Positions 6,217 to 24,923 of a stretch of DNA of 24,923 nt are shown here, in pieces (the stretch's first letter is position 1; each line of letters begins with the position of its first letter). Below the pieces are notes generated by a model that had not been told where the DNA came from, searched no databases, and saw only the letters and a program-made list of their open reading frames with translations. A program made the translations under genes and the position numbers. The DNA comes from a virus: positions 1-24,923 of the IMG/VR virus record IMGVR_UViG_3300008952_002003; one strand, written 5' to 3'.

Positions 6217-6651
6217 TTACCCCCTAAACTGTGCGTATATCCTTTTAAACCAATGAGGATCGGTTAAGGATATAATACGCACACAACTATCTTGCGTAGT
6301 GGTTATTACTTCATTATTTCCTATGTAAGTACCTAAGTGGCATGGGATAGTTTCTACCCTGAAAATCAAAACATCGAACTGTTTGAGTGGCGGCCACTTA
6401 AAATTAGTGTAAGACCCTTTCCAAACTAGTTCTAAGTGTTTCTGCATTTCCTTAAATAAAAACCTAACATCGTTGAAAGAGTAGAATTCTCGATATTTCT
6501 TAATCACTTCTCTATCTGTTACTATGCCCTTGAACCTGCTAAGAACTCCCATAGTAAGAGTTAAACAATCAAAGCCTTGATCCCCTCTGCCCCCTATAAC
6601 GTAAGGCTTGCCTAAAAACTCATCCTGTAAAATTTTCTGTACGTGGCACAT
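6217..6651 (-). CDS. Minimal NlpC/P60 tail-tip peptidase (K-like)
   Basis: This predicted cysteine peptidase of the NlpC/P60 family is the counterpart of the C-terminal half of lambda K. Such enzymes act at the tail tip, probably cutting peptide bonds in peptidoglycan or processing tip assembly. From the chosen start it has 144 residues. The pattern GKPYVIGGRGDQGFDCLTL gives the nucleophile Cys29. His105 lies in CHLGTYIGN. The usual third polar residue, often His, falls in VITTTQ and seems to be Thr here. Lambda K also carries an N-terminal JAMM-type domain, which is absent. I placed the start at the ATG at 6651 because GGAGG lies 5 bases upstream; a longer in-frame start at 6690 has no SD. 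The gene overlaps the L-like gene by 32 bases and ends 2 bases before the J-like start. Confidence 0.85.
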   Translation of the reverse strand: MCHVQKILQDEFLGKPYVIGGRGDQGFDCLTLTMGVLSRFKGIVTDREVIKKYREFYSFNDVRFLFKEMQKHLELVWKGSYTNFKWPPLKQFDVLIFRVETIPCHLGTYIGNNEVITTTQDSCVRIISLTDPHWFKRIYAQFRG

Positions 6652-7795
6652 TAAGCCCTCCAACACTACGAATAATAGACTGCTTACCATCGAAATTTAC
6701 ATTGTTAGTAAACCTATCTTTACAGTCTTTGAAAGTCCTATTACAATTTGGTTTTAGTTCTGCCGTTCCAGAGGATATAGAACCAGGTATTGCCCTATCC
6801 AAAGTTAAATCGTAACCCGTACCGTTTTGAACACAAGACCTGATTATCCTGTAAAGACCAGACAGCCCCCCAGTTTTGAAAGTGCATAACCCCATTGTCC
6901 AATAAGCTAAATCAGTAGCCCCTGCGGGGGGGACTACCGTTCCGCTAGGTTGTATATTGTCTACTGTGATTGTTTTACCAGACCCGGAAATAACATCATA
7001 AGTGGCACTTTTAACAAAATTAGAAGTAATTCTACTGCAATGTATGTCTCCTGTATTATACGGGCAGGTATAGCTATAAGTTACTTTAGGAATTTCCCCA
7101 GATAAAAAATCAACCTCTGACTGTAGTTCAATAGATACCCCACTCTCGCCGGGGGATGCGGTATTCAATTTTCCTACATACATTTGTACCCAAAATTGCC
7201 TGTCCTTATAAAATGGTATTTTTATAGTGGCGTTTTGGTTTAATGTCTGAGGCCCGTTACCTCCGTAATCTACCTCTATCTCCTCGGCAGCACCGTTCAT
7301 AGTTACAGCTATTACTTCTCCGGCATAGTTACCGTTACTATCCCCTACCTCTATAAGATCAGTAACCCCAAGCCCCGGATTACCTGCAAAATTAACCACT
7401 TTATTTAGGTCTGTACTGTGTATTTTACAGGTAGTAAAAGTATTATCTCTAACGCCCAGAGGTACTAGCCACATCCTGAAAGTAGACCTATTAAGTATTT
7501 GCTCATTTTGTAACAAAGACTTAATAGACCCAGGAGTATTGATACCGGCAGGATCAAAAATATTAACCCTTGCAGAATGTGAGGTTTCGTTTAATCGGTG
7601 TAAAAACTCTTCTATATCAATAGGCCAAGGGAGCCAATTAACAGTAGCGCTATCTGTTATTAGCGGGAAATTATTAATGCAGTAACGGTAGTAAATATTA
7701 GGGCTTCCTACAGATACTTCTATTTCCATAAAAAAGCTTATATTAACCGTATGGTTTTGGAAATAGGCTGAAATTTCTGGGTCAACTTTAGGCAT
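6620..7795 (-). CDS. L-like minor tail protein with four-cysteine cluster (DUF2163/BR0599-like)
   Basis: This 391-residue tail-tip protein matches the lambda L / DUF2163 / BR0599 group, which links the distal tail ring to the J hub. The visible signature is two cysteine pairs: Cys244 and Cys253 (TCPYNTGDIHC), then Cys351 and Cys358 (CNRTFKDCKDRFTNN followed by NFDG). In lambda L four cysteines bind an iron-sulfur cluster; here the spacing within pairs (9 and 7) fits that arrangement. The roughly 97 residues between the pairs are beta-rich (YWTMGLCTFKTGGLSGLYRI and after), as in DUF2163/BR0599 proteins. Two further cysteines lie in that insert. The ATG overlaps the stop of the M-like gene by one base (TAATG), so the two are translationally coupled. 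Cluster binding is inferred, not shown. Confidence 0.85.
   Translation of the reverse strand: MPKVDPEISAYFQNHTVNISFFMEIEVSVGSPNIYYRYCINNFPLITDSATVNWLPWPIDIEEFLHRLNETSHSARVNIFDPAGINTPGSIKSLLQNEQILNRSTFRMWLVPLGVRDNTFTTCKIHSTDLNKVVNFAGNPGLGVTDLIEVGDSNGNYAGEVIAVTMNGAAEEIEVDYGGNGPQTLNQNATIKIPFYKDRQFWVQMYVGKLNTASPGESGVSIELQSEVDFLSGEIPKVTYSYTCPYNTGDIHCSRITSNFVKSATYDVISGSGKTITVDNIQPSGTVVPPAGATDLAYWTMGLCTFKTGGLSGLYRIIRSCVQNGTGYDLTLDRAIPGSISSGTAELKPNCNRTFKDCKDRFTNNVNFDGKQSIIRSVGGLNVPRTENFTG
6652..6662 (-). promoter_or_regulatory. Ribosome binding site that decides the NlpC/P60 start
   Basis: The minus strand reads GGAGGGCTTA directly before the ATG at 6651, so GGAGG is five bases from the start. The in-frame ATG 13 codons further upstream (6690) is preceded by AT-rich sequence with no purine-rich SD. 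This supports the shorter protein. The site lies inside the 3' end of the L-like gene, which makes translational coupling likely. Confidence 0.75.
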
Positions 7796-8195: not shown

Positions 8196-11100
8196 CTAAT
8201 TTCCTTTGAATAAGTTAGTTTTTCTACCAGTATCATAAACTACTTTTTGTATTGCCGGAGCCATTCTTTTTTCTACCATAGCTTCGGGGTCCATTACATC
8301 CCCTTCAATATTAATATGAATATCCCCGCCACCCACTTTGCTTAATGAAGGACTTAAATAACTAGGCATACCATCCGCTCCGCCTAAGCCGCCCTTAGTT
8401 ACAGACCCGGCAATGCTATCAAATAGATTACCTAAAAAAGATTCTTCTATAGCCCTTTCCATAACTAATTTATTTAAGCGATCCATAATCCCGGCAAAAA
8501 CATCATAGAGCATATCCCCCCATGTTTTAGTACCTTTAATTATATCAGCGAACCCACTAGTCCAAGTTTCTTTCATAGTATTAGCTGTTTGCTGAGTAAT
8601 ACGAATTCTCTCATTAGCTATTTGTTGATCAATCTGTATAAGCCTATCCCCTGAGTCTTTAAGCTGAGCCTCCTCACTTTTTCTGTTTATACTAGTGTCT
8701 TTTGTGATCCTTTCTCTTAGTTTATCTACTGCTTCCTTCTCGGCCTCCAACTCTCGTATACCCCCACCGATACCGTAGGATTTTAGATCACTTAAGTTCT
8801 GTATACCCCGGCGATTCTTTTCATCAAACGTCGATATCTTGTTTTTAATCCTATTCTTAGCTGCGTCGGTTTGAGCTTTTTCCAGAAGGTTACTTAATTG
8901 ACTACGAAGTTTAATGCGCTCAAACACTTGGATAATTCTGTTTCTATACTTCTCATTTAAGGCTTTTTCCTTTTCCAGGATTTGCGTATAAGCTCTGTTT
9001 TGTACTTGCTTATCTGCTAATTGCGCCCGATAATGTTTTACTTCTTTCTCCCTATCGCTAATTTGCTTTTCTAGTATTTCTATATGTTGTTTATCTATAA
9101 CCCCTAAAGATTTAGCAAGCTTTAATCGCTTCTGTTTAACGGCAATAAGGGCTTGAACATTTTTTAAGTGTTCCTTTATTTGCTCCTCTGTTTTCCTGTC
9201 TTTGTAGAAAGTCATTTCGGCAGTAGTATCTTCATGTCTTATAGCCTCCCCCATTAATTTATTTACTATTCTGCCAAGTTTTTGCTTTCTTTGAAGATTT
9301 TGAATTTGTGCCTGTATTGAGGCTTTACCCCCTTCCTCTGCTTTGTTCAGTTCTTCGTTCAAGTCCTGAATCTCATATTGCATTTTAATCTCTGTTTCCA
9401 AACCCTTTATCTCTTTTCCTTTATCTTTTACTAAATCTTCAAGATTAGAATAAGCGGCTAAATCTCTGCCTAGCCGTTCATCTCTTCTCTTAGAGTTTTT
9501 GGCATCTTGCTTTTCTCTTGCTTCCCTAACCTTCTCCCTGGCTATTAGCAATTTTTTTACCTGTTCTGCTATTTCCACCTCCTCTTCAGTTAAATTTGAA
9601 ATTTCCTCCCTTGTTAGCTCTATTTCATTATCAGGACCTCTTAGAGCCTCGATAAGGGAGCTGTAAAAGCTCTTTTTTTCTTTTGGGGTACCTTTCGGTA
9701 AGTTGTTTACTGTTATAGATAATCTGGTCTGCATTTCTAAGTTAGCGGCTGTTAAATTCTCAAATGTTTTGAATTTTTTAAGGGTTGTTTCCAAATCTTC
9801 TTTTGTGGTGTCTTCCGTTACCTCTTCCCCAGACGATAACCCAGAAGTTTTAAATACTCTCCCGGCTATAATTTTATTCGTTAACTCTAGCCTAGACCTA
9901 AGCTCTTCCAGATTTTTAATTTCCCCTTGTCTTGCTTCTTCTGTATATCTCTCCATCAAAGAATATAGAACCTCTAGCACTTTAGGCCTATTAGCGTATT
10001 GCCTATTACTACCAGGAACTGGATCTGCGGGTCCATAACCGGGAGAGCTATTGGGCCTGCTGCTGAGCCTAAAATACTTTTTTATATTATTCGCTACGTT
10101 TGGGCCAAAAGCACTATCAGATAAACCCATCACCATATGCAGTAGCCTATCCCCTGTCCTGCTTTTAGTATCTGTGCTCCTTAAATTTGCCAACTCCTCC
10201 GGGGTAGTACTTTGTAAAAACCTCTCCAGTAATTGTGAATCATCCGAGGTAAAGTTACCTGGTAGTTTAGCAAAGTTTTCATCGTCTAAAACCTTGGCAG
10301 CTATTATGTTTGATCTTACAAAATTTCCTTTGCTAGACCCGTAGCTCCTTAAGCCCTCTTCCTTAGTCTTAATTTCGGTTCTTATTAAATCTCGCTCAGC
10401 TAAGGCCTTTAAGCGCATAGTTTCTTTCATTCGTCTTTCAACTATACCTAAAACCTTATCTACTTTAGTCCCAAAATTATCAGCATTTACCATACCGGTT
10501 AAAAAAGCACTATTTTGAACCTCAGCTAACTGTAGAAACTTACTCTTTAGCTGATCTACCCCTTCCCCGGTGTCTTTAAAAGCATCAACACTAGCTTTAA
10601 GGTCGGCTAAATCCCTTTGATTTTTATTTGCTTCTCTGCCTAAATCATTCACAGCTTTTTTTACTAGGTGAATAGGCCTAACTGCTTCCCTATTCTTTTT
10701 AGTAAGGTCTTCCATTGCCTGTATTTCTGAGTAAATATAGTAAGTCAACCCCGCTATAGCTAAACCAAGGAGAGCTATTGGGCCTGCTGCTGAGCCTAAA
10801 AAACCCGCCACAGCGCCCCCTTTAATAAGCAAAGGTATAATCCAGGCTATGGCCCCGGCAAAACTATTTAAAACCCCTTTAACCAAGAAAATATTCGCAG
10901 CCAATATTGCTATAACAGCCGCAAACTTAGTCATAGCAAAAATAGCAACCCCTATACGTGATGTAACATTTCCTACTCCGGTAGCAGTATCGCTGAAACT
11001 TTTGATCCACTCTTTTAGTTGCTTCGTTATATAAATAATAGCTGGCTTAAGCTCCAAGCCTAGTTTTTGTTGCATAATAGTAAAAGCCCCGGAAGTGCTA

Positions 11101-14100
11101 TCAACCGACCCAGCCAAAGTAGACATAACGGATTCTAAAGCCCCAGAAGCAAGGGTAGCCTCTATACTAATTTCCCTTTGTAAGGCCATCACCCTCTCTC
11201 TTTTCGTGAGTTGAGCCACAGTCTTACCTATAGAATCAGCATACTCTTTATTAATCTGTGATATATTTTTAGTAATACCACCGGCATCGGCCAACACGGA
11301 CAAGTTTTGACGAAAACCCTCGGTAGTAGAAACAAGGGCTTGGCCCAGTGTTAATGCAGACTGTTTATTTTCAATGGATATTTCTGTAATTTGTTTTGCT
11401 GCTGCTACGGCCTCATCAAAAGTAAAACCCATCCTCATTAGATTTCTTACTGCTTTACCTGCCTCGCCTATAGATACTAGACCTTTCTGAACAATATCTA
11501 AATTAGCTACGGTCTTTTGCGCCCTATCCCCAAATATCCCGCTAAACCTAGCCTGCCTATTCAAAGCATTTAACGCTTTTTCTGCCTCCCCCGCTGTGCG
11601 TATAAGCCTCATCATAGGATATACAAAAGTAGCAGAGGCGATTAAAGCAGTAAAAAATACTTGCCTAAACTGGGTAAAACTTCTCTGGGCCTCCCCCCAA
11701 AACCTGCCTTGCAACTTTTGAAGTTTGCCTATTCTGCCCACCAAACTAGCCTCAAGCTGTAATAAAGCGTTCTTTTTCTTTTGTATCAGAAAAGTATTAC
11801 GTTGAGTTTCCTTGGTTTTATTTAAAACAGATAGCTTTTCTCTAGTAAGCGCCAGCTCTTTACTAAGCAGGGAGATAGACCTTTGAGTTCTTACAGTAGG
11901 AAGAAAACTACTCTTTCCGGCAGCTCCCCGGCTATATATGGCACCTACTTTAGTATCTACCCCTTGGTAGCGGTTACTTACCGCTTTTGCTATTTTACCT
12001 TCCCTTAATGACGCTGCAGAAGATTCCGCCGCTTCCTGCGCCCTAATCAAGTTAAGAACTTCTCTTTCTTTTTTAGCCAATCTTTGACTTTTGGCTATCA
12101 TATCTTCTTGGGCTATTCCTAATTTTTCACCTGCGTTATACTGCTTTCTAAGCTCCTGCGTAATGCGGTTTTGCTCTGCCCTATACTTGGAGGCCTCTGC
12201 TCTAAGGCCTACTAGATTTGTTGCCGTAATCTTGGCTAATCTCGACTCTTCGGCAGCTACCTTTCTGCCGAACCTAGCCCTGTTTTTATCGTCGGCTTCC
12301 TGTTTTCTTTTCCTTTGACCTCTTTGATTCAGGAGTTGCTTTGCTTTTCTATCTCTGGCGTTTTGGTTTTTAGTGACTATGTTATTAAAACTACTTTCCA
12401 GACCTCTTAATTTCCCATACCTTTTTTCAAGCCCGTCAAGCTCGCTACCCTCCGCTGCAGTTCTTGAAGAGCCTTTACTAAGTAAAGTATCTCTTCTGCC
12501 TACTATAGAAGCCGCTGCCTTACTAGCAAAAGCTGATTGCTTAGTAGCCTCTGTTATAGCTTTTCTGGTGTTTTCTTCCTTTTTTAACGCTCTTTGTTTT
12601 GTCTTTAATCTGTTAATCTCAGAATCTATTAATGAGGTAGTGTCCTTCTGCTTTTGAATCTTCTGGTTACTGACTGCTCTTTCTTTAGCGTTAATCCCTT
12701 TTTCTATAATTCCTTTACGCTTTTCGTGTTCCTTAAGAATAGCCAGATCATAACTATCCCTGCTGGTTCCGGTTTTAGTCCTCTGCTCTTTAATTTCCTT
12801 TTCTGTTCTCAGAAGCTTATTCTTTAACTGCTGAACAGACATTGTTTTAACGTCCTCTTGCAAGGAGCTGGTGAATAAGTTTCTCCGTACTACCGCCTGC
12901 GCCCTGAACTCCTTTTGGCTTCCCTTAAGCAGGTCTAAAGATTTTCGTTCTCGTTCTACCGCCTGGGCATTTACGTCATTATCTTCTTTACCTAGAGCTA
13001 CGGTTGCTTTTCTTAGCCTAGCTTGCTGAGCCTGTACTGCTGTATTAGCCTCCGACAGGGATTTAAGTTTAGCTGCCTGCTCTATAACCCCCCTAGGTAC
13101 TGCCCCTCCTCCTACGCCTAAACCTCTCCCCTCCAGCTTAGACTGAGCATTAGCGGATAAAGCATCATATTTAGCTGCCTCCTGCGGGAAATCCTTTGCT
13201 AAAAATTTACCTCTTTGCGCTGCTATAGCCTCCACTTTGCGGATATCGGCATAATCTTTTTTACCAACAGCGACTTTAAACTTATTACCTAAGTCTCTTT
13301 GTCTATCAACTATTCTCTTTACTTTAGAAGCTTCGGCATCTGATTTTTGTTTTTTACTCACAGCTTGTGCTTCTTTTTCCTTGTTTGCTACCAAGGTAGT
13401 AAGCCCTTTTCTATAAAGGGTTGCCTGCTCAAGAGCTGTTTTAGCCTTTTCGGTTCCGTATTTTTCAAGAGTCTTTGCTGCTTTTTGCTCTGCTTTTAAA
13501 GACTTCTTAAGCTCGCTTTTAACTTGCTTCTCGGATTTGCCAGACAGCTCCCCCATTCGCCTATCGTGGGTTTGTTCGAGTTGTACTTTGGCCGCCCTAG
13601 TTGCTGCTTTTGTGGCCGCCGCCTCTACCTTATCCCTTCTGACTCGTATAGCCGTATCGTATTTATCCAAAGAGCGCTGCACCTTATCCAATAAAGAAGG
13701 GTGCATGAATTTTTTAGAATACTGCTCCAACGACCCCCTAAGCTTTTCCATATGCTTAAGGTCTTTTGCCCCTTTAGCTTTTTTAAATGCCTCCTCACTT
13801 TGCTTTACCCTGTAGTCTACCTGAGCCGTAGTTTTACCTTTACCGAATTCATCACTGAAATAATTGTCGTTATCCAGTCTTTTTAAGTAATTGTTTAGGG
13901 CTGCTTTACTAGCTTGCGGGTTATTAGCCTTAAACATGCTGACAACTTGCTCATTTGTTAGTTGCTTAGTGGGGTCTGGGAATACCGGATTACCTCTGTT
14001 ATTTGCTACTACTCCGCCCTTTCTGAGAAAAGATTCCTCAGTTACGGAGCTGACCATCCTGTCTATAGAATCCGTTACGGACCCCACATCAGACCCAAAC

Positions 14101-14618
14101 AATCTATCTGCTTTTCTTTTAGCTGTTCGTAGCTGCTTGTCGTAAGTATCTACATTCCCTAGAGCAGATATAGAAGTAATCTCCGCCGCCTGCCTATACG
14201 CTTGTTTAGCTTCGTCGGTTAAGCCCCTCTTAAATTTTAAAACGCCTGTAGGTGTATCCCCTCTTGCAATATCCTGAAAGTTCATTTTACCTGTTTCAGG
14301 ATTTACTACCCTCTCTTGAAAAAATCGGTGTGCGTGTTTAGGGCCTCTTACTGCCTGAACAGTGGCTAAGGCCTGCTTATACTGTGTATTTATCTTACCT
14401 TGTGTTTCTTCTATTTGCTCATGAATATGTAGAAGATTTGATGCTTCACGGGTTAAGATTCTTACTCGACCTTTTTGTTTTTCTATAACCCTATTTCTGT
14501 CAAACTTCCCATCTACTTTTAGAGCCTCCATACGCTTAGCGAAGTCCTCAAGACTTCTGAGCTGTCTTTTAACATCAGATATATCAGCTTTTACTACTAT
14601 AGTGTGAGTTTCTGTCAT
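8196..14618 (-). CDS. Tape measure protein (very long)
   Basis: This 2140-residue protein should run inside the growing tail tube, set its length and help DNA entry. Residues 1 to about 980 are almost entirely Lys/Arg/Glu/Ala/Gln-rich coiled coil. Residues about 980-1005 are hydrophobic (FFTALIASATFVYPMM). About 1005-1170 resembles the tape measure core (GFRQNLSVLADAGG, VMALQREISIEATLASGALE). Strong hydrophobic segments lie at about 1222-1300, probably for membrane insertion. A Pro/Ser/Gly-rich linker lies near 1510-1535, then a second coiled coil to about 2010. The C-terminal FADIIKGTKTWGDMLYDVF motif (about 2020-2040) matches lambda H-type ends. At about 0.15 nm per residue the tail would be near 320 nm. 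The start has AAAGG upstream and lies 2 bases after the frameshifted chaperone stop. The gene holds a 33-bp repeat read in two frames. Confidence 0.93.
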   Translation of the reverse strand: MTETHTIVVKADISDVKRQLRSLEDFAKRMEALKVDGKFDRNRVIEKQKGRVRILTREASNLLHIHEQIEETQGKINTQYKQALATVQAVRGPKHAHRFFQERVVNPETGKMNFQDIARGDTPTGVLKFKRGLTDEAKQAYRQAAEITSISALGNVDTYDKQLRTAKRKADRLFGSDVGSVTDSIDRMVSSVTEESFLRKGGVVANNRGNPVFPDPTKQLTNEQVVSMFKANNPQASKAALNNYLKRLDNDNYFSDEFGKGKTTAQVDYRVKQSEEAFKKAKGAKDLKHMEKLRGSLEQYSKKFMHPSLLDKVQRSLDKYDTAIRVRRDKVEAAATKAATRAAKVQLEQTHDRRMGELSGKSEKQVKSELKKSLKAEQKAAKTLEKYGTEKAKTALEQATLYRKGLTTLVANKEKEAQAVSKKQKSDAEASKVKRIVDRQRDLGNKFKVAVGKKDYADIRKVEAIAAQRGKFLAKDFPQEAAKYDALSANAQSKLEGRGLGVGGGAVPRGVIEQAAKLKSLSEANTAVQAQQARLRKATVALGKEDNDVNAQAVERERKSLDLLKGSQKEFRAQAVVRRNLFTSSLQEDVKTMSVQQLKNKLLRTEKEIKEQRTKTGTSRDSYDLAILKEHEKRKGIIEKGINAKERAVSNQKIQKQKDTTSLIDSEINRLKTKQRALKKEENTRKAITEATKQSAFASKAAASIVGRRDTLLSKGSSRTAAEGSELDGLEKRYGKLRGLESSFNNIVTKNQNARDRKAKQLLNQRGQRKRKQEADDKNRARFGRKVAAEESRLAKITATNLVGLRAEASKYRAEQNRITQELRKQYNAGEKLGIAQEDMIAKSQRLAKKEREVLNLIRAQEAAESSAASLREGKIAKAVSNRYQGVDTKVGAIYSRGAAGKSSFLPTVRTQRSISLLSKELALTREKLSVLNKTKETQRNTFLIQKKKNALLQLEASLVGRIGKLQKLQGRFWGEAQRSFTQFRQVFFTALIASATFVYPMMRLIRTAGEAEKALNALNRQARFSGIFGDRAQKTVANLDIVQKGLVSIGEAGKAVRNLMRMGFTFDEAVAAAKQITEISIENKQSALTLGQALVSTTEGFRQNLSVLADAGGITKNISQINKEYADSIGKTVAQLTKRERVMALQREISIEATLASGALESVMSTLAGSVDSTSGAFTIMQQKLGLELKPAIIYITKQLKEWIKSFSDTATGVGNVTSRIGVAIFAMTKFAAVIAILAANIFLVKGVLNSFAGAIAWIIPLLIKGGAVAGFLGSAAGPIALLGLAIAGLTYYIYSEIQAMEDLTKKNREAVRPIHLVKKAVNDLGREANKNQRDLADLKASVDAFKDTGEGVDQLKSKFLQLAEVQNSAFLTGMVNADNFGTKVDKVLGIVERRMKETMRLKALAERDLIRTEIKTKEEGLRSYGSSKGNFVRSNIIAAKVLDDENFAKLPGNFTSDDSQLLERFLQSTTPEELANLRSTDTKSRTGDRLLHMVMGLSDSAFGPNVANNIKKYFRLSSRPNSSPGYGPADPVPGSNRQYANRPKVLEVLYSLMERYTEEARQGEIKNLEELRSRLELTNKIIAGRVFKTSGLSSGEEVTEDTTKEDLETTLKKFKTFENLTAANLEMQTRLSITVNNLPKGTPKEKKSFYSSLIEALRGPDNEIELTREEISNLTEEEVEIAEQVKKLLIAREKVREAREKQDAKNSKRRDERLGRDLAAYSNLEDLVKDKGKEIKGLETEIKMQYEIQDLNEELNKAEEGGKASIQAQIQNLQRKQKLGRIVNKLMGEAIRHEDTTAEMTFYKDRKTEEQIKEHLKNVQALIAVKQKRLKLAKSLGVIDKQHIEILEKQISDREKEVKHYRAQLADKQVQNRAYTQILEKEKALNEKYRNRIIQVFERIKLRSQLSNLLEKAQTDAAKNRIKNKISTFDEKNRRGIQNLSDLKSYGIGGGIRELEAEKEAVDKLRERITKDTSINRKSEEAQLKDSGDRLIQIDQQIANERIRITQQTANTMKETWTSGFADIIKGTKTWGDMLYDVFAGIMDRLNKLVMERAIEESFLGNLFDSIAGSVTKGGLGGADGMPSYLSPSLSKVGGGDIHINIEGDVMDPEAMVEKRMAPAIQKVVYDTGRKTNLFKGN
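10042..10074. repeat. 33-bp exact direct repeat, copy 1 (inside tape measure gene)
   Basis: These 33 bases are identical to 10769-10801 and in the same orientation. They are flanked by different bases on both sides. Here the minus-strand reading frame gives residues around 1515 as FRLSSRPNSSP, part of a Ser/Pro-rich linker. The other copy is read in a different frame. The offset between copies is 727 bases, not a multiple of three. Confidence 0.9.
10769..10801. repeat. 33-bp exact direct repeat, copy 2 (inside tape measure gene)
   Basis: This copy is identical over 33 bases to 10042-10074. Here the tape measure frame gives LGSAAGPIALL at about residue 1274, a Gly/Ala-rich turn within the hydrophobic segment. 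It fits its surroundings well, so I infer that this is the original copy and 10042-10074 the derived one. Confidence 0.9.
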
Positions 14619-14620
14619 AA

Positions 14621-15432
14621 TTAACCTTTAGATTTTTTAGCTTCCGCCTGTGAAATCATTGCTTGGATTCTTGGGTCCGAGGAAGGGGTTAGCCCTCCTG
14701 GGCTACCAGAAGCTTTGTTCATTTGCTCATTCATTGCATATTGCGTCCTTATAAGCGTAACCAATTCTGGAAACCGTATCTTTAAAATAATGTCGTCTCT
14801 ACTATAACCTAACCCCAATAACCATACTAAGCCAGACCCCCAGAGATTAGCTTTTGAATCTGTTCTTTCATTCCCTGAGGTAGGAGCTTTTTTGGTATCT
14901 GGTCAAGCTTATTTACCTCCATGAACTTTTCAGCTAAGCCTAAGATATCCTTAAAAGAAATACACTCAGCTAAATCATCGGTTACGTTAGTCCCTGGGCA
15001 TATAATACCTAGCACTTCTTTAATAACGATCAAGGGCATAGTGGACCCTCTCTCTATAGAGACTACCAGCTTTTCAAACTCTAGTTCCTGGGTTTTATTT
15101 GCTAAGTCTTTTCCTAACTTTTCCAGCTTCTCATTAATTTCAATGAATACCTTCAAGTCTTCTGTATTCTCCTGTTTTAAATCAGGAACCTTAGCCTCCA
15201 AGTCATCGAACTCATCCCGCAATTTACGGATATCATCTTTTAGCTGCTCAACTAAATTAGATTCCATAATCTCGGAACTAAACCAATGATTCTTTATTGT
15301 ACGCAACGCTTTAGCTAGTTTATTAGCTGTTTGAACTACGGGTACATTTTTAATTTGAAGAACTAAAGAAATACCATTTTTATCTGTAATCCTATACTCT
15401 TCCATAACTTCCGCAACAGGTAATTGCTCCAT
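14621..15432 (-). CDS. Frameshifted tail assembly chaperone fusion (GT-like)
   Basis: This is the predicted long product of a programmed -1 frameshift, equivalent to lambda gpGT. It would carry 182 residues decoded from the upstream frame, then 88 residues in the -1 frame, giving 270 residues. The -1 frame opens after a TGA at 14905-14903, contains the A AAA AAG heptamer at 14893-14887, runs past the zero-frame TAG (14829-14827) without a stop and ends at 14621. The extension contains WLLGLGYSRDDIILKIRFPE and a Gly/Ser/Pro-rich tail, as in T-type domains that bind the tape measure protein. The downstream frame has no ATG between the heptamer and the conserved part; its only local start candidate is a TTG at 14818. 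This argues for synthesis by frameshift. The gene sits directly before the tape measure, the standard place. Confidence 0.85.
14827..15432 (-). CDS. Tail assembly chaperone, short form (G-like)
   Basis: This 201-residue protein lies between the tail tube and tape measure genes, where lambda-type phages keep the G chaperone. G-type chaperones coat the tape measure and recruit tube subunits, and are absent from the finished virion. Residues 1-50 are mixed alpha/beta (MEEYRITDKNGISLVLQIKN). Residues about 55-125 form a charged Glu/Lys/Leu coiled coil. The C-terminal 75 residues are helical. The ATG has AAGGAG upstream. A terminator lies between this gene and the tube gene. Recognition rests on position, predicted helical make-up and the frameshift extension, not on a clear sequence motif. 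The coiled-coil insert is unusual compared with lambda G (about 140 residues). Confidence 0.8.
   Translation of the reverse strand: MEQLPVAEVMEEYRITDKNGISLVLQIKNVPVVQTANKLAKALRTIKNHWFSSEIMESNLVEQLKDDIRKLRDEFDDLEAKVPDLKQENTEDLKVFIEINEKLEKLGKDLANKTQELEFEKLVVSIERGSTMPLIVIKEVLGIICPGTNVTDDLAECISFKDILGLAEKFMEVNKLDQIPKKLLPQGMKEQIQKLISGGLA
14887..14893 (-). promoter_or_regulatory. -1 ribosomal frameshift slippery heptamer A AAA AAG
   Basis: In the chaperone frame the codons are CCA AAA AAG CTC, giving the canonical X XXY YYZ heptamer A AAA AAG, the same slippery sequence as E. coli dnaX. Slippage leads into an open -1 frame that continues to 14621. A GGAGG lies at 14920-14916, about 22 bases upstream. 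That is further than the roughly 10 bases of the dnaX stimulatory SD, so its role is uncertain. I see no strong stem-loop just downstream. Confidence 0.85.
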
Positions 15433-15513: not shown

Positions 15514-16059
15514 TTACCCATAGGTATAAGTCATTTTAAGCATCGGCGTAGCACTTGCACCTTTGCCTTTAGGCGGTACGCCTCTGGCCTGGAAAGTAGG
15601 CGAAGCGAACTGCTTATCGGCGAAAGGGGCAGTAGATTGACTGGCTTTCATCTTGGCAATCTCTACTTTAAACTGCTTACCATCATCAGTAAGCGCAATA
15701 AATTCAGCTCTAAAATACTGGCCGAATGTTCTACCGTCCATCGTAAAAATTTCATCTGGGGAAACATCGGTTTTAGCCCCCCCAAACAAAACACCCATAG
15801 CATCGAGATTAAGCTGAGCGTTGCCTAAATCAAGACGTACATTAGCAGGGGTGGCTACTATGCCTTGAACAACGTCATCTCCTCTAGCCTCGACCTCTTC
15901 CTGTTCCAGGGTTAAATTAGCATTATTAATACCATGAATACTGATAATACTCCCCGCAACATTAGGGTAAGTCATAGGGTTATTGCCCTCAGGATCGGTA
16001 GCTACAGCTTGAATTTTCAAATCCCTAACACCGAAAACCAAAATATTTCTAGTTGTCAT
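15514..16059 (-). CDS. Major tail tube protein
   Basis: This 181-residue protein is called as the tail tube subunit, which stacks as hexameric rings around the tape measure. The middle part, NNANLTLEQEEVEARGDDVVQG, has the 'acidic strand, then G-D-D' look of tail tube folds, followed by ANVRLDLGNAQLNLDAMGVLFG, which fits the helix of such folds. The C-terminus is beta-rich and ends in a Gly/Lys-rich loop and MLKMTYTYG. Context is strong: it follows a tail-terminator-like gene, has its own good SD (AAGGAG, 6 bases before ATG), is followed by an intrinsic terminator, and precedes the chaperone and tape measure. No extra Ig-like domain is seen at the C-terminus. Confidence 0.82.
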   Translation of the reverse strand: MTTRNILVFGVRDLKIQAVATDPEGNNPMTYPNVAGSIISIHGINNANLTLEQEEVEARGDDVVQGIVATPANVRLDLGNAQLNLDAMGVLFGGAKTDVSPDEIFTMDGRTFGQYFRAEFIALTDDGKQFKVEIAKMKASQSTAPFADKQFASPTFQARGVPPKGKGASATPMLKMTYTYG

Positions 16060-18816: not shown

Positions 18817-20100
18817 CTACTTTTTCAACGCTAAGTAGGAAGGAAAGCCAGTTGATGCAAACGTCTGGGTACCGTCCATAAGGAACTTAGCCGCCTGAAT
18901 CAGGTTAGCAAACCCGCTCGTCATACGAATGTAGTAAGCGTTAGTTTCAATACTAGCCTTTCTCTCCTCTTCAACGTGCATAGGCTCCGACACCAAATAC
19001 TCAAGAGCTGCTTTTGGGTCAAGAAACAACTGCTTATCATTAGCAATGTCATCATGAACCCACATCGTAGCACTAGAAAGAACACTGGTATTTCCCAGAT
19101 TAAGCTGAAACCTTGCCGAGGCATTGTTAGCACTAGGAGAAAAATCAGCATCAAGGAATTGCCTTAGAGCCTCGGCCTCGTTTGCGATAATCTGAGTAGG
19201 ACGATAAGCCGTTCTCATATAGCGCAAGAAAGCACGAATGTAATCCTTGTACTTGATTTTATTCCCCACGTTATCAACCCCTAAAGCCCCGATAGGATCA
19301 GTCAAATTAGGCTTATCCCCATTCAGAAGGATATCAATAGCCTTACTTGTAAGATCATTATTAAGTCGGGTACTAACATCAGCTAAATAAATACCAAGCT
19401 GGTCTACAGTTACATACTGCTTAACAGGATCAGTAAGAGCAATACCCACCCCGGTACGAGTAATCTTTACAGTCTTTCGACCAAAAGATACTTCACCCAG
19501 AGGTACATGCTCAGCTTCCCCTATTTCTTCCATCTGGGCGCTAGACCCGGAATAGTTGATATGGGGAGCATCCTCTTGAGGCTGTGAGATAGAGCGCTCA
19601 GTAGCGACTAGGCTTTTCCACATCCCCTGCTCAATCAAATCTTTGGTAATAAAAGCCCGAATAATTTCAGGCACTAACTCCCTGGAACCGGTAACCTTAT
19701 CCGTGCTTAACAAAAACTGAACCGTGTCCCTTGCGGGGTTAAAACCCATTTGACGATAAATGTCTTTAATCGTAAACGGCTCTCCAGTTTTGAAGTTCTT
19801 GTAATTAGCCCCTTTAAGGTACTCATCCAAGCTTAAGTTATGAAACCCTTCCCTACGCTGCTTATTAAGGTTAGCCATAATCCGCTTAATAGACAGATTT
19901 TCTTTGATACTAACCATTCCATGATCTTTGTCATAAAAAACATGGGAATCATCATAATTAGCGAACTCTTTCGGCGTAACATCGGGAGCGGTAAGACTAA
20001 CTGTAGTCTCTTCCCCTTCCTGCGTAACATCACCGATTTGTCGGATAACTCCGAATTCGTGAGTTTTCCGCTTATCAACTACGTTTAAATTAATCGGCAT
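18817..20100 (-). CDS. Major capsid protein, HK97-fold
   Basis: This 427-residue protein is called as the main shell subunit. The order of elements fits the HK97 fold. An N-terminal arm and helical region (residues 1-135) may be partly removed by the neighbouring protease. Residues about 165-210 form an E-loop-like beta hairpin (GEAEHVPLGEVSFGRKTVKI). Residues about 228-262 form the long spine helix (VTVDQLGIYLADVSTRLNND). A P/A-domain region with YRPTQIIANEAEALRQFL follows, and a C-terminal strand-helix part ends in FPSYLALKK. Its place after a protease and a decoration protein and before connector genes is standard. AAGGAG stands 8 bases before the ATG. It starts 4 bases after the decoration gene and has a terminator just downstream, consistent with very high expression. 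Confidence 0.88.
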   Translation of the reverse strand: MPINLNVVDKRKTHEFGVIRQIGDVTQEGEETTVSLTAPDVTPKEFANYDDSHVFYDKDHGMVSIKENLSIKRIMANLNKQRREGFHNLSLDEYLKGANYKNFKTGEPFTIKDIYRQMGFNPARDTVQFLLSTDKVTGSRELVPEIIRAFITKDLIEQGMWKSLVATERSISQPQEDAPHINYSGSSAQMEEIGEAEHVPLGEVSFGRKTVKITRTGVGIALTDPVKQYVTVDQLGIYLADVSTRLNNDLTSKAIDILLNGDKPNLTDPIGALGVDNVGNKIKYKDYIRAFLRYMRTAYRPTQIIANEAEALRQFLDADFSPSANNASARFQLNLGNTSVLSSATMWVHDDIANDKQLFLDPKAALEYLVSEPMHVEEERKASIETNAYYIRMTSGFANLIQAAKFLMDGTQTFASTGFPSYLALKK

Positions 20101-20104
20101 GATA

Positions 20105-20815
20105 TTACTCCTTCACCAAAACTTGCACAGTTTCAGTAATAGCCTTGGTTTCGATTGCTAATCCATGCAAAGCTGCGTCAATATACCCTACCCCGCTGGC
20201 AATAGTAGCCGGAATAGTATACGTCTGTGTTTCCCCCGCATCAATAGTCTTAGCCATTGTCATTCCGTTTCCAGTTTTACCCGGAGCAGAGACAGTAACT
20301 ACAGCCCCCGATGAGGTAGCAAACAATCCTTTATTAATTAGCTCAATATTGTCATTAATAAGAGCCGTAATAGCCGTAGCTGTAACTGTAGGAGTATCCC
20401 CGTTTGCTGTGTTAAACGTAATGTCTACACCGTCAATCGTGATCTTATTCCCAGTAGTTCCTGCTGCATTTCCTCCTGCGATTGTAATAGTAGCCCCGCC
20501 GTTAGCAGTATTTCTATGCCATTCGTAGACTTTACCATCAGCGCCCAAGATTACAGGCCCGGCACTAATAGCCTCGCCCGCTACATAATTAATCAAAGAG
20601 CCGTAATCGGTTCTAACAGTTACTTTGGAGTTGTTAACAACGCCAGTCGCATCGACAATTACTCGCCCAAGGGCTAAGGGATTGCCGTTACTACTCTTAG
20701 TAACTTCTTTCGATCCCGACAGGCTGACTTGATCATTTTCCGCCAGAGTTACCCCTGTTTTAGGTGTAAACGTAAGCTGTAAGCCCCGTTCCTGCACCAT
20801 TCGATTTTTAGCCAT
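20105..20815 (-). CDS. Capsid decoration protein (DUF2190-like) with an inserted domain
   Basis: This 236-residue protein precedes the capsid gene, where head decoration proteins usually lie. Residues about 20-100 (ENDQVSLSGSKEVTKSSNGN, LALGRVIVDATG, YVAGEAISAGPVILGADGKV) match the repeated 'G-x-V' beta pattern of DUF2190-type decoration proteins. The pattern returns at the C-terminus (LHGLAIETKAITETVQVLVKE). Between them, residues about 103-190 form a separate domain with GNKITIDGVDITFNTANGD, then TAITALINDN, then GAVVTVSAPGKTGNGMTMA. This is a strand-helix-strand pattern often repeated in phage sheath and tube proteins. Typical DUF2190 proteins are about 110-130 residues, so the insertion explains the extra length. 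A strong GGAGG SD lies 7 bases upstream. The call is good for a virion surface protein; trimerisation is family knowledge. Confidence 0.75.
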   Translation of the reverse strand: MAKNRMVQERGLQLTFTPKTGVTLAENDQVSLSGSKEVTKSSNGNPLALGRVIVDATGVVNNSKVTVRTDYGSLINYVAGEAISAGPVILGADGKVYEWHRNTANGGATITIAGGNAAGTTGNKITIDGVDITFNTANGDTPTVTATAITALINDNIELINKGLFATSSGAVVTVSAPGKTGNGMTMAKTIDAGETQTYTIPATIASGVGYIDAALHGLAIETKAITETVQVLVKE

Positions 20816-20835
20816 GTCAATTCCTCCAAATTAGT

Positions 20836-22137
20836 TTAATTTCCGTGAACTTTTTCACAAAATACGTCTAAAGCTTTTTCTTGCTCTTTGTCCACACTAG
20901 TAACTGTTAGCTCTACAGGCTCCGACTCGACTTCTTGAGACGATTGCCTGTCTACAGTAGTATCATTTCCACAAGCCGAACATTTCAAAGCAAACTCAGT
21001 TTCAATCTCCTCTTTGTATAAAGTAAAGAAATCGGAAACCATTTTGAAATCTTCTGATTTTTCGATTGTGGGAATAAAACTCTGTTTACCTTTCAAACGC
21101 AAAAACTTGAGTAATTCTTTCTTTTTGCGTTCAAATTCATCATAACCAAACTTGGCAAAAGTAGATAAACTAACCCCGTAAGCGGATTTTAGAGTTTGAA
21201 ACTCTTCTGCATTACCGAACTCATCTACCTGTTTTTGTAGATTTTCTTTGTCATCTGCCAGGGTGTCCCGCTCTTTCGTTAGGGCTGTGATTTGATCAGT
21301 GAGGGGCTTAGTGCCTGCTTCTATCATTTCCTGAGCTTCTTGCTTAGAAAAAGTTTCTGCTTCTGACTTACTAAACCCACCATCCACTTTAGCGGAAGGA
21401 TCGGCCCCGTCATATACGGAAGACAGCTCTTGAACAAAGTTAATCTCAGTTACCAGAAACCTAACCAGCTCCCCATCTACCTCGTGACCGAGCAGATACC
21501 AAAAATCCCAGGGGTCTTCAAATTCGTGGGAACGCTTCTTCTCAAAAGAAACCCCCACACTAACTGAATCCACAAATTCCTTTGCAAATTTAATAGCAAA
21601 AGACTCGTCCAGAGGCTTATAAACAAAAACCGAAGTATTAACCCCGGAAACCTCACTCTTATTATCGAACCAGGATTTAGTAGTTAGCCCTACCAACTTG
21701 TCCACAGAAAGGTCATGATCTTTATAGAATTTTAGATCATCGAATTTTTTATCTTTCTGTGCCTGCGCTAAAGCGGTAATTTTCTTACCGTCTGGGACAT
21801 GAGAAAAATCATAAATTCCGGCTACAACCTGCTCGGAAAGCATTCGATAAACTTTTGAAACAAAGTTATCTTTATCGGCCTCGATTTTTCTTTTATGTTT
21901 TGAGCCGTCTAGCCCTTTTTCAAACTTAGCGACTCCCTCTTCCGTTAACTTAGTTTCCTCAGGTAACGAATCTTCTTGCACAACAGCCTCACTAAGGGAA
22001 AACGTAGTTTGAAAACTAGACCCATCTTCTCCGTGAAGAGTAGCTAAAGCCTTAGTTTCTTTCTCAGTTCTTACTTCTTTGCCTGCTTCTGTGAGGGCTT
22101 TTAAGAACTGTATAACTTGCTCTTTTGTGAATTTCAT
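20836..22137 (-). CDS. Prohead protease fused to a scaffold-like coiled coil
   Basis: This 433-residue protein joins an S78-type prohead protease to a scaffold-like tail. The protease is visible from about residue 85 to 252. His141 lies in FYKDHDLSVDKLVG (family pattern 'H-D-x(n)-G'). Ser193 lies in VDSVSVGVSFE (pattern 'S-x-G'), 52 residues later. TEINFVQELSSVYDGADPSA (230-249) matches the family's closing 'E-x-S-x-V, A-x-P-x-A' strand. Residues about 258-310 form a Lys/Glu/Asp coiled coil, followed by a helical part. Near the end is a CSACG pair (386-389) and an acidic tail. Such enzymes cut scaffold and capsid N-termini during maturation. No separate scaffold gene exists between portal and capsid, so this C-terminal part probably does that job. 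AGGAG stands 8 bases upstream, inside the preceding small gene. Confidence 0.82.
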   Translation of the reverse strand: MKFTKEQVIQFLKALTEAGKEVRTEKETKALATLHGEDGSSFQTTFSLSEAVVQEDSLPEETKLTEEGVAKFEKGLDGSKHKRKIEADKDNFVSKVYRMLSEQVVAGIYDFSHVPDGKKITALAQAQKDKKFDDLKFYKDHDLSVDKLVGLTTKSWFDNKSEVSGVNTSVFVYKPLDESFAIKFAKEFVDSVSVGVSFEKKRSHEFEDPWDFWYLLGHEVDGELVRFLVTEINFVQELSSVYDGADPSAKVDGGFSKSEAETFSKQEAQEMIEAGTKPLTDQITALTKERDTLADDKENLQKQVDEFGNAEEFQTLKSAYGVSLSTFAKFGYDEFERKKKELLKFLRLKGKQSFIPTIEKSEDFKMVSDFFTLYKEEIETEFALKCSACGNDTTVDRQSSQEVESEPVELTVTSVDKEQEKALDVFCEKVHGN

Positions 22138-22142
22138 AGTGA

Positions 22143-22307
22143 TTACTCCTGTGTACTACCTCTAATAATATCCGAACTTACCCTAATAAAGTCAACATCA
22201 AGATTTTGTTTCTTAAACTTTAGTTGCTCTATTTCATTTTCTCTTTGTTCTTGACTCAGATTTTTTAACCCCTTTTTCTTTTTCGTCTTTAGTTTGTCTT
22301 GTGCCAT
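22143..22307 (-). CDS. Small hidden gene between portal and protease, 54 residues, unknown
   Basis: An ATG at 22307-22305 opens a 54-codon frame ending with TAA at 22145-22143. It overlaps the last 74 bases of the portal gene in another frame and fills the gap up to the protease gene. An AGGGAGG SD lies 6 bases before the ATG, one of the best in the window. The protein is very basic at its N-terminus (MAQDKLKTKKKKGLKNLSQE), then helical and charged (QRENEIEQLKFKKQNLDVDF), and ends in IIRGSTQE. It contains the next gene's SD near its stop. I do not recognise it. A small structural or scaffold-associated role is a guess from place. The strong SD, the fit to the gap and the close coupling support a real gene. 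Confidence 0.7.
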   Translation of the reverse strand: MAQDKLKTKKKKGLKNLSQEQRENEIEQLKFKKQNLDVDFIRVSSDIIRGSTQE

Positions 22308-23670
22308 TTTCATCCTCCCTTTTACTTACTTGATTATCAAACTCAGCTTGTGTTTCAACATCCGAAGCATAGGGATAACGAGGTTCAGATAAAGAGGGTT
22401 TATCAAAGCCCATATTACCGGCATATTGATTCTGGTCTGTAATACCATCTTCATACAAACCATGCTGAACTTTCTGCTCCATAAAACTAGCTTCTGCATC
22501 GACTTTATTAGTAAGGGATTTTGCTTTCTTAAACTTTACAGTTACTTCTTTTATTGGCAACCCTTTCATTATTAAGTGCATCTGCAATCCTACAGATAAG
22601 ATATCGGCAATCATACTTTGAGGCATGTGCATACCGTTAAGGTATTTGTCATAAACTACCCCGGCGTAGGTTTCAGTAGTAGAGTAGGTTCTGCCTCCTA
22701 GTGCGGGGTCTTGATTAAGGGCGGAAAACACCTGCTCCTCATTCATCTGATTAAGCTTATATGCTCCGTCTGCGCTCCCTGACGCTCCTATATCCTGGTG
22801 TTCTATTTCGTGATGTTTTTGGAACCCTACGGCTAAGCCATCAGAAAAATTACCTCTATATTTTTCCACATTGTCATCAAGTAGTTTCTCCAATCTTGCG
22901 GCGTAGGCAGAATCACTCTCGGATCTTCCTTTAGCAGGAGGCCTAAACAGAATTTTCAAAAACCCCATTACCCCAAGTTTCTTGACGTATTTTCTCAAGT
23001 TATCAAAGAAGTTTTCTTGAGTTTGAAGAGGGGTTAAAACAGATAAGAAAGGGGGAACGCCGTATGGGTTTCCATCGATAGTTTCCAAAGCTTTGTAAAT
23101 AACAGTTTTAGCATTGAGTTTAATATACTGCTTAAAGGTAGTTCTACTCTGTCCAAGCATAAGCCGGATCGGTACTTTTTGCCTTAGCTCAAGTTTTCCG
23201 GCCTTTTTTCTAAACCACCGGATTGAGTAGGTAGGGATAATCAATACTTTTTGCATTCCCTCTAAGTCATTTCTTGGAACCCATTCAACACCAATCGCAC
23301 CATTACGCATAATGTTACCGATAGCATCGTTAATAAACCCCTTTAAATTTGAGGAAGGGTAAACAGTCCGGGCAAATTTACGAATCTCATCCGCCGCTTT
23401 TTCGATTATCTCAGCTTTCTTCTCCTCGGTGTTTACTGAATCCTCGAACTCATATTCAAGGGTATAATCAGTATTGCCGGTGTTTTGAGCATTCTTTACC
23501 GCTTGGGATACATCAGGAATTAATACTGATTTTTCAGTAAGAATATTCATTAAGTCAAAATCGACCGTAGGTTTAATCTCTGCTTCCCCTCCTTTTTCCA
23601 GGAGACTAAAAGAGAAGTCCGGTTTTGTGATCTGGTTTGCAAACTGAGTTACTAAATTAGAGATTTTCAT
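22234..23670 (-). CDS. Portal protein
   Basis: This 478-residue protein should form the dodecameric portal ring through which DNA enters the head and to which the tail attaches. It follows the terminase gene directly, its ATG overlapping the terminase stop (TAATG). Residues about 85-130 (EIRKFARTVYPSSNLKGFIN, then NGAIGVEWVPR) and the strand-rich part to 200 fit the portal wing and stem. The DGNPYGVPPFLSVL motif at about 199-212 is the portal signature preceding the clip/stem helices. About 340-375 (HMPQSMIADILSVGLQMHLI) is the long crown-side helix region. The last 45 residues are highly charged and probably disordered. The length is normal for the family. The 3' end overlaps a small gene in another frame. 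Confidence 0.86.
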   Translation of the reverse strand: MKISNLVTQFANQITKPDFSFSLLEKGGEAEIKPTVDFDLMNILTEKSVLIPDVSQAVKNAQNTGNTDYTLEYEFEDSVNTEEKKAEIIEKAADEIRKFARTVYPSSNLKGFINDAIGNIMRNGAIGVEWVPRNDLEGMQKVLIIPTYSIRWFRKKAGKLELRQKVPIRLMLGQSRTTFKQYIKLNAKTVIYKALETIDGNPYGVPPFLSVLTPLQTQENFFDNLRKYVKKLGVMGFLKILFRPPAKGRSESDSAYAARLEKLLDDNVEKYRGNFSDGLAVGFQKHHEIEHQDIGASGSADGAYKLNQMNEEQVFSALNQDPALGGRTYSTTETYAGVVYDKYLNGMHMPQSMIADILSVGLQMHLIMKGLPIKEVTVKFKKAKSLTNKVDAEASFMEQKVQHGLYEDGITDQNQYAGNMGFDKPSLSEPRYPYASDVETQAEFDNQVSKREDENGTRQTKDEKEKGVKKSESRTKRK

Positions 23671-24923
23671 TAACCAACTCTCATCCCAACATCAAAATAA
23701 GGCTCATATTTTTTTCTGCATTCTTGTGTTATAGCCGATGCCATAACTAAGTCATCACAGTAACCCGGCAACGCACCTATAGCCGTATTATTAAGCCAAT
23801 GATAAGTGTAGTGCTGATTTATAGCCCTAACCGATCTCTGCTTAAAGCTACCATCTTCATACAAGCCTTGCAAATACTGCAGTATTATAGGCTTAGTAGT
23901 CTGACTAGTGTAAAACCCGAAAGTTTCTGTATCTTGGTCTTCTTCAAATTGGCTACGTTTTCTTTGGTGTTTAATCTGAGTATATAGGCTATCTTCTGGA
24001 AACCCAAGCTCTAGTAATAATTCTATTATAGACCATCCAATAGAATTACTCTCGATAGCAGTAAACGCATCATTGTAATAAAAGCTCAAATACATGATCA
24101 AATAAGTATATTGACTAGTGCTTATTTTTCCCATGTATTCTAGGGCTAACTCATTTGTCTCGTAGTTTACAATTTGTAATGCTTGGTTATCATGCTCATC
24201 TGTTAGAGCTTTAGCCGCATCACAGCCCATGCAATATCTAGCCTCCGGGCGTGGCTCCTCCCAAATCAATAAATCCTCTTTACTGATTAAAGCTTCTGAT
24301 AGATACACTGGAGGCCTGCCGTGGCTTCCACTTTGTATGTAATTACTCTCATCTATAGCATACTGTTCTTTAAAATATTGCATTACCTTATCAATAGGGC
24401 GCTGCTTTTTATCCCATTTCTCTTTTACTTCTTCCTCCTGCTCCCGCATAAACAGTAGATTAAAGTAAGCTCTACCAGAAGTTAACGCCTCACATAAAAC
24501 CTCTTGTGCATATCTCAAAGGCCCAAGATCAGCCAATTCCTTAGCCGCCCATACTTCGTCTCTTCCGGGAAACATTTTGTAGTGTAGCTTTATAGGGTTA
24601 AAGCTGTTCGCTTTTTCTAATGCCTTTGTCCAGGTTTGATAAAAGAAATTTCCTATACCATTCATGGTAGACATAATTATGCACGATCCACCAGTCGCTA
24701 GAGTAGGTCTAGCAGCGGCCCAAATATCCTCAATATGTGATACAAAGCCTGCCTCATCAATCACAAGCAAAGACAAACCCTCTGACCTACCCGCATCCTT
24801 GGAAGTAGGCACAGACTCTATACGAGAGCCATTAGTAAACTCCATCAAAGTAGTAGTTCCGTAATCCCCCTTTTTTCCGTTAGTGATTTCTAACTGCATA
24901 TATTCCGGTAGCGCCTTATAAGC
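23670..24923 (-). CDS. terL: Terminase large subunit, C-terminal part (5' end outside window)
   Basis: The packaging motor ATPase and nuclease is cut by the right edge. The frame is open to base 24923, eight codons beyond the first internal ATG at 24899, so that ATG is not the start and the Walker A part is missing. Residues counted from 24899: Walker B LSLLVIDEAGFV with Asp48 and Glu49; coupling motif SCIIMSTMNG at 72-81; RNase H-like nuclease with Asp227 (RYCMGCDAAK), Glu283 (FTAIESNSIG) and Asp382/Asp383 (CDDLVMASAI). The FGFYTSQTTKPIIL segment (327-340) is typical of large terminase nuclease domains. All expected metal-binding acids are present. It is the first gene of the structural block visible here, with the portal gene directly behind it. 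Confidence 0.92.
   Translation of the reverse strand, partial: AYKALPEYMQLEITNGKKGDYGTTTLMEFTNGSRIESVPTSKDAGRSEGLSLLVIDEAGFVSHIEDIWAAARPTLATGGSCIIMSTMNGIGNFFYQTWTKALEKANSFNPIKLHYKMFPGRDEVWAAKELADLGPLRYAQEVLCEALTSGRAYFNLLFMREQEEEVKEKWDKKQRPIDKVMQYFKEQYAIDESNYIQSGSHGRPPVYLSEALISKEDLLIWEEPRPEARYCMGCDAAKALTDEHDNQALQIVNYETNELALEYMGKISTSQYTYLIMYLSFYYNDAFTAIESNSIGWSIIELLLELGFPEDSLYTQIKHQRKRSQFEEDQDTETFGFYTSQTTKPIILQYLQGLYEDGSFKQRSVRAINQHYTYHWLNNTAIGALPGYCDDLVMASAITQECRKKYEPYFDVGMRVG

Follow-up and report, generated by a model that had tools for sequence, protein, structure and literature searches.

Known frameshift systems in tail chaperone genes and dnaX

In phage lambda, the tail assembly chaperone genes G and T lie in overlapping frames between the genes for the major tail protein and the tape measure protein, the second frame lacks a start, and a -1 shift late in G, on the slippery sequence G_GGA_AAG, joins T to G as the GT product. 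The locus considered here is found on the minus strand of a viral DNA of 24,923 nucleotides (IMG/VR record IMGVR_UViG_3300008952_002003, here called the window) and has the same arrangement, but differs from lambda in its slip site, A_AAA_AAG, in a predicted 3' hairpin, and in G and T proteins that are without detectable similarity to known families. In lambda, gpG attaches to the tape measure protein and the T part to the major tail protein (PMC5009743), and where the level of frameshifting has been tested in other tail chaperone genes it was 6-7% (PMC3711429).

An earlier note on this DNA had considered a dnaX-type site to be unusual for a G/GT pair, but AAAAAAG has already been reported or predicted as the slip site in many phages. 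These include Burkholderia phage AH2 (PMC3483164), the group VT1-Sakai, psiM2, PVL, PV83, ul36 and a Borrelia prophage (PMC3483164, after Xu et al. 2004), and seven Paenibacillus larvae phages (PMC6003738), all with sites identified or predicted from sequence. The heptamer, the gene pair and the direction of the shift are shared between the window and the phages of this type, and a stem-loop is predicted downstream in AH2 too; within the phage collection searched, no match to G or T of the window was found. The E. coli dnaX gene likewise combines A_AAA_AAG with a 3' stem-loop after a short spacer, although its -1 frame provides a single codon before it ends, as against 88 in the window, and its stem is of 11 bp, as compared with 9 bp and a 25-nt loop here (PMC5009743).

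Gene layout and coding character of the second frame

The G and T frames are situated between the genes for the major tail protein and the tape measure protein (Table 1), in the order major tail protein, G, T, tape measure protein, with T in the -1 frame relative to G. The ATG of the G open reading frame is preceded by a Shine-Dalgarno sequence (AAGGAG), and at the other end the T stop codon, TAA at 14623-14621, is followed after 2 nt by the tape-measure ATG. If T is left uncoded, a gap of 208 nt results in an operon that is elsewhere tightly packed, its next largest gap being 96 nt. A segment of the tape measure protein matches Pseudomonas phage KT1 (E 6e-21; the KT1 record is unannotated) and also matches L136, a divergent viral contig taken up below.

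Table 1. Features of the G/T locus and its neighbours (positions in the window)
Feature	Position	Strand	Basis
Tape measure protein gene, 2140-codon ORF	8196..14618	-	PHROG 1272 (weak, E 0.0012), size, position, KT1 and L136 matches
-1 frame T, 93 open codons (88 after the heptamer)	14624..14902	-	Codon-usage test; homology to the L136 -1 frame
G ORF of 201 aa in the zero frame, tail assembly chaperone; central coiled coil predicted	14827..15432	-	ORF call, Shine-Dalgarno sequence, position
Candidate stimulatory hairpin, 9-bp stem (14880-14872 / 14846-14838), 25-nt loop	14838..14880	-	6 nt 3' of the heptamer; helix search, folding
A_AAA_AAG slippery heptamer, zero frame	14887..14893	-	Sequence reading
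Major tail protein gene, upstream of G	15514..16059	-	PHROG 4971, E 7e-10

Recalculation from the two frames gave the same predicted products as the earlier note, a protein of 201 residues and a fusion of 270 (182 + 88) with the junction KK/APTSG. The TGA at 14905-14903 does shut the -1 frame 9 nt before the heptamer, and no ATG occurs near the start of the T frame, the first being far in at 14734, with a TTG at 14818. The 88 codons once described as lying past the zero-frame stop had been miscounted; they run from the heptamer, and only about 68 are beyond the stop.

The second frame thus overlaps the end of G and is open, and it is without a start signal of its own. That it is also coding-like was seen with a codon-usage score derived from the remaining genes of this phage and compared with both sampled off-frame windows and true genes. 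The region unique to T scored 0.178 per codon, a value reached by no sampled off-frame window (mean -0.10), and one near the bottom of the distribution for true genes (4.5%; true-gene mean 0.33). The overlap of 19 codons between the heptamer and the zero-frame stop is itself coding-like in the -1 frame, with 0.5% of off-frame windows reaching its score, and this locates the shift to the heptamer or its close vicinity.

The TTG at 14818 lies in the T frame 8 nt past the G stop codon (TAG), and TTG starts were called for other open reading frames in the window, so that T could in principle be made separately by termination-reinitiation, as a 65-residue protein and with no fusion. Such a route is very unlikely: the TTG has no Shine-Dalgarno sequence at a usable distance, the -1 frame ahead of it, inside the overlap, is already coding-like, and a start there would remove a W-x5-WL block that is common to the T protein of L136, in which the T frame has no start codon before a TTG at 7007.

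The slip site and the downstream hairpin

As the earlier note had it, the zero frame reads CCA AAA AAG. The heptamer AAAAAAG is at 14893-14887 of the minus strand; it is the A_AAA_AAG of dnaX, has the frame and direction that a -1 shift into T requires, and is the sole full XXXYYYZ heptamer in the G/T overlap. In-frame AAAAAAG occurs 7 times in the 8074 codons of the window, from which about 0.02 would be expected in an overlap of about 25 codons. Formal XXXYYYZ sites of any kind are found in frame 80 times in the window, so the motif class on its own is weak evidence. When the ten in-frame AAAAAAG or AAAAAAA sites of the window were compared, the G/T site alone led into a long -1 frame (88 codons, versus 1-13) and alone had a strong, well-placed helix. 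T_GGG_GGT near the G stop codon was also considered as a slip site and rejected; its P-site tRNA would be without cognate re-pairing, and the -1 frame is coding-like already upstream of it.

No obvious downstream stem-loop had been recognized earlier and the stimulator was described as unclear, but a perfect 9-bp helix starts 6 nt past the heptamer, and the predicted 3' hairpin that it forms is a candidate for that role. In the stem, CCTCAGGGA pairs with TCTCTGGGG, two of the pairs being G-U. The calculated energy is -9.9 kcal/mol for the 9-bp stem-loop alone and -10.5 kcal/mol with an inner hairpin included, and the pairing probability of the stem is 0.97-0.99 with the first bases after the heptamer, those under the ribosome, omitted. 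Only 0.3-0.5% of codon positions in the phage have a helix of such strength at that spacing. By published empirical rules, a stimulatory hairpin in bacteria should start 4-10 nt after the motif, open with a G-C pair and reach at least 7.6 kcal/mol (PMC4066793), and the G/T hairpin, with 9 bp and a spacer of 6, conforms to these rules; its excess folding of 0.13 kcal/mol per nt is above the threshold of 0.09 applied in the same work. The folding energy of the whole segment is not lower than that of shuffled sequence (z 0.35), and the argument for the hairpin therefore rests on its placement. A search for a pseudoknot gave weak options of 5-6 bp only, and this was set aside. GGAGG does end 22 nt upstream of the heptamer, as previously noted, but a Shine-Dalgarno sequence is effective for -1 stimulation at 9-14 nt before the motif (PMC5009743); this one is too far, none is closer, and in this respect the locus is unlike dnaX.

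A run of six A at the slip site also bears on whether slippage would be ribosomal, since A runs support slippage by bacterial RNA polymerase (PMC3711429), and the longer product could then arise from transcriptional slippage. The runs reported for the polymerase, however, are longer than seven A (PMC3711429), the relative L136 has only five, and a hairpin at ribosomal spacing would be left without a role, all of which make this origin highly improbable.

Relatives of the locus

Searches of phages and viral contigs found no close relatives of G, T or most other proteins of this phage except in two contigs that are identical to it over 6.6 kb; close homologs of G and T were accordingly limited to these two copies. 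A tape-measure profile built from the window and phage KT1 was then used in a scan that gave one divergent lineage, the IMG/VR contigs L136 (3300022902_000610) and L137 (3300022888_000404), which are identical to one another over the G/T region. Further searches starting from this pair did not find a third lineage.

L136 and L137 have related head and tail genes; identity between L136 and the window is about 38% for the capsid protein, 39% for the scaffold, and about 47% for the tape measure protein. The gene order of L136 is the same, with G at 6291-6920 and a T homolog at 6866-7120 in the -1 frame. Its G protein, although in the same position, is weakly similar in sequence (20% in a global alignment, with no BLASTP match), and its T protein shares 30% identity with that of the window along 67 aligned residues (E 4e-10, for a single comparison), with the motifs WLL.LG and SGSP.G.T and the W-x5-WL block in common. 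At the shift, the residues KKL occur in the two G proteins alike, coded by AAA_AAG_CT, and in both the T frame goes on with A after KK. AAA_AAG pairs are rare in L136, at 3 in 2911 codon positions with the junction included.

The L136 heptamer is C_AAA_AAG and not the full tandem motif, the first base being C in place of A, so perfect re-pairing would be possible for the A-site tRNA only; in E. coli, A_AAG shifts more readily than any other tetramer (PMC4066793). The best hairpin in L136 is weaker than that of the window, having 7 bp at a spacing of 11 nt, and is unremarkable in that about 10% of positions in its genome match it. Across this single divergent lineage, then, the layout, the -1 direction and the AAA_AAG core are kept, and the full heptamer and the stem are not. 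The kind of change that the earlier note would count against a frameshift, an altered heptamer in relatives at synonymous positions and without compensation, is present only in part, the altered base being non-synonymous (CCA versus CTC) and the AAA_AAG core being retained.

The sole point in favor of reading the two frames as a single gene disrupted by an indel, or as an error of assembly, and in either case without a programmed shift, is that they abut. This reading is scarcely credible given that the sequence is identical in three contigs, which makes a sequencing indel unlikely, that the divergent relative has the same two-frame layout, and that G and T in different frames are the usual layout beside tape-measure genes (PMC3483164).

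Neither G nor T matched a tail-chaperone family in Pfam, PHROGs or NCBIfam; T had no hits, and G had weak coiled-coil-type matches only. Alignment of G/T by hhalign with actinophage-type G and T profiles gave a probability of 0.2%. Since the G and T open reading frames of different phages share low sequence similarity (PMC5009743), the missing family match weakens the case for membership without overturning it. Two scans of bacterial genomes for relatives gave nothing, and a tail-tip profile scan gave 80 loci, none similar in G/T. Many relatives of the major tail protein with a G/T layout were obtained by scanning with that protein, mostly with +1 (or -2) T frames and of unrelated sequence. 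In the IMG/VR loci with a distant major-tail-protein match (L099-L128), T is mostly +1 (or -2) to G where the pair is readable; L103 and Streptomyces phage mu1/6 (L105) have a -1 layout with GGGAAAC.

Single-sequence AlphaFold models were poor (pLDDT of 62 for T and 50 for G). The low-confidence model of the G protein (14827-15432) has a predicted long central helix, or coiled coil, and the sequence of L136 G suggests the same, so that a long central coiled coil of G may be a feature of the lineage.

A capsid-based search led to gut phages with a different tail. The capsid, portal and terminase of the window (18820-24899) match the gut phages MT121964 and MT835790 at about 27-33% identity in the longer alignments, the tail proteins have no match in these two, and the tail genes of MT121964 look contractile, which suggests head/tail module exchange. 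Elsewhere in the window (6217-7795), an NlpC/P60 open reading frame and the tail-tip frame upstream of it overlap by 71 nt with longest-start calls, and the true NlpC/P60 start is probably further in.

Proposed mechanism and significance

The position of the pair, flanked by the major tail protein and tape measure genes, the coding-like -1 frame without a usable start, a heptamer that is among the most slippery in bacteria, the correctly spaced hairpin, and the homologous T in the divergent L136, in the -1 frame at the same KK/A junction, together support the tail-chaperone frameshift put forward in the earlier note. The locus is thus very probably a lambda-type G/GT tail-assembly-chaperone pair expressed through programmed -1 ribosomal frameshifting at a dnaX-type site with a 3' hairpin. 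Most ribosomes would make the 201-residue G protein. A minority would be stalled by the hairpin while AAA occupies the P site and AAG the A site; the two tRNA-Lys would then re-pair one base back (A_AAA_AAG to AAA_AAA), yielding the 270-residue G-T fusion. By analogy with lambda, G would coat the tape measure protein, the T tail would recruit the major tail protein, and the ratio of G to GT would matter for tail assembly. What the sequences show is the layout, the coding character of the -1 frame, a predicted hairpin, and the same layout with a homologous T in a divergent relative; from these we infer the occurrence of the shift and its efficiency, as well as the stimulatory role of the hairpin and the functions of the proteins. 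A more speculative suggestion, and a rather unlikely one, is that this orphan lineage has an unusually strong signal, with a GT fraction that could far exceed the few percent of other tail chaperones, and that the strength of the signal (full heptamer and hairpin here, A_AAG core in L136), and hence the G:GT ratio, may differ between relatives.

In summary, this is an ordinary, known phage feature, to which the window adds the hairpin and a T family without known relatives. It is one more G/GT pair, with a divergent T family, and leaves knowledge of tail chaperone frameshifting unchanged; for the phage itself, an unannotated T frame and a chaperone pair can be named where almost no relatives are detectable.
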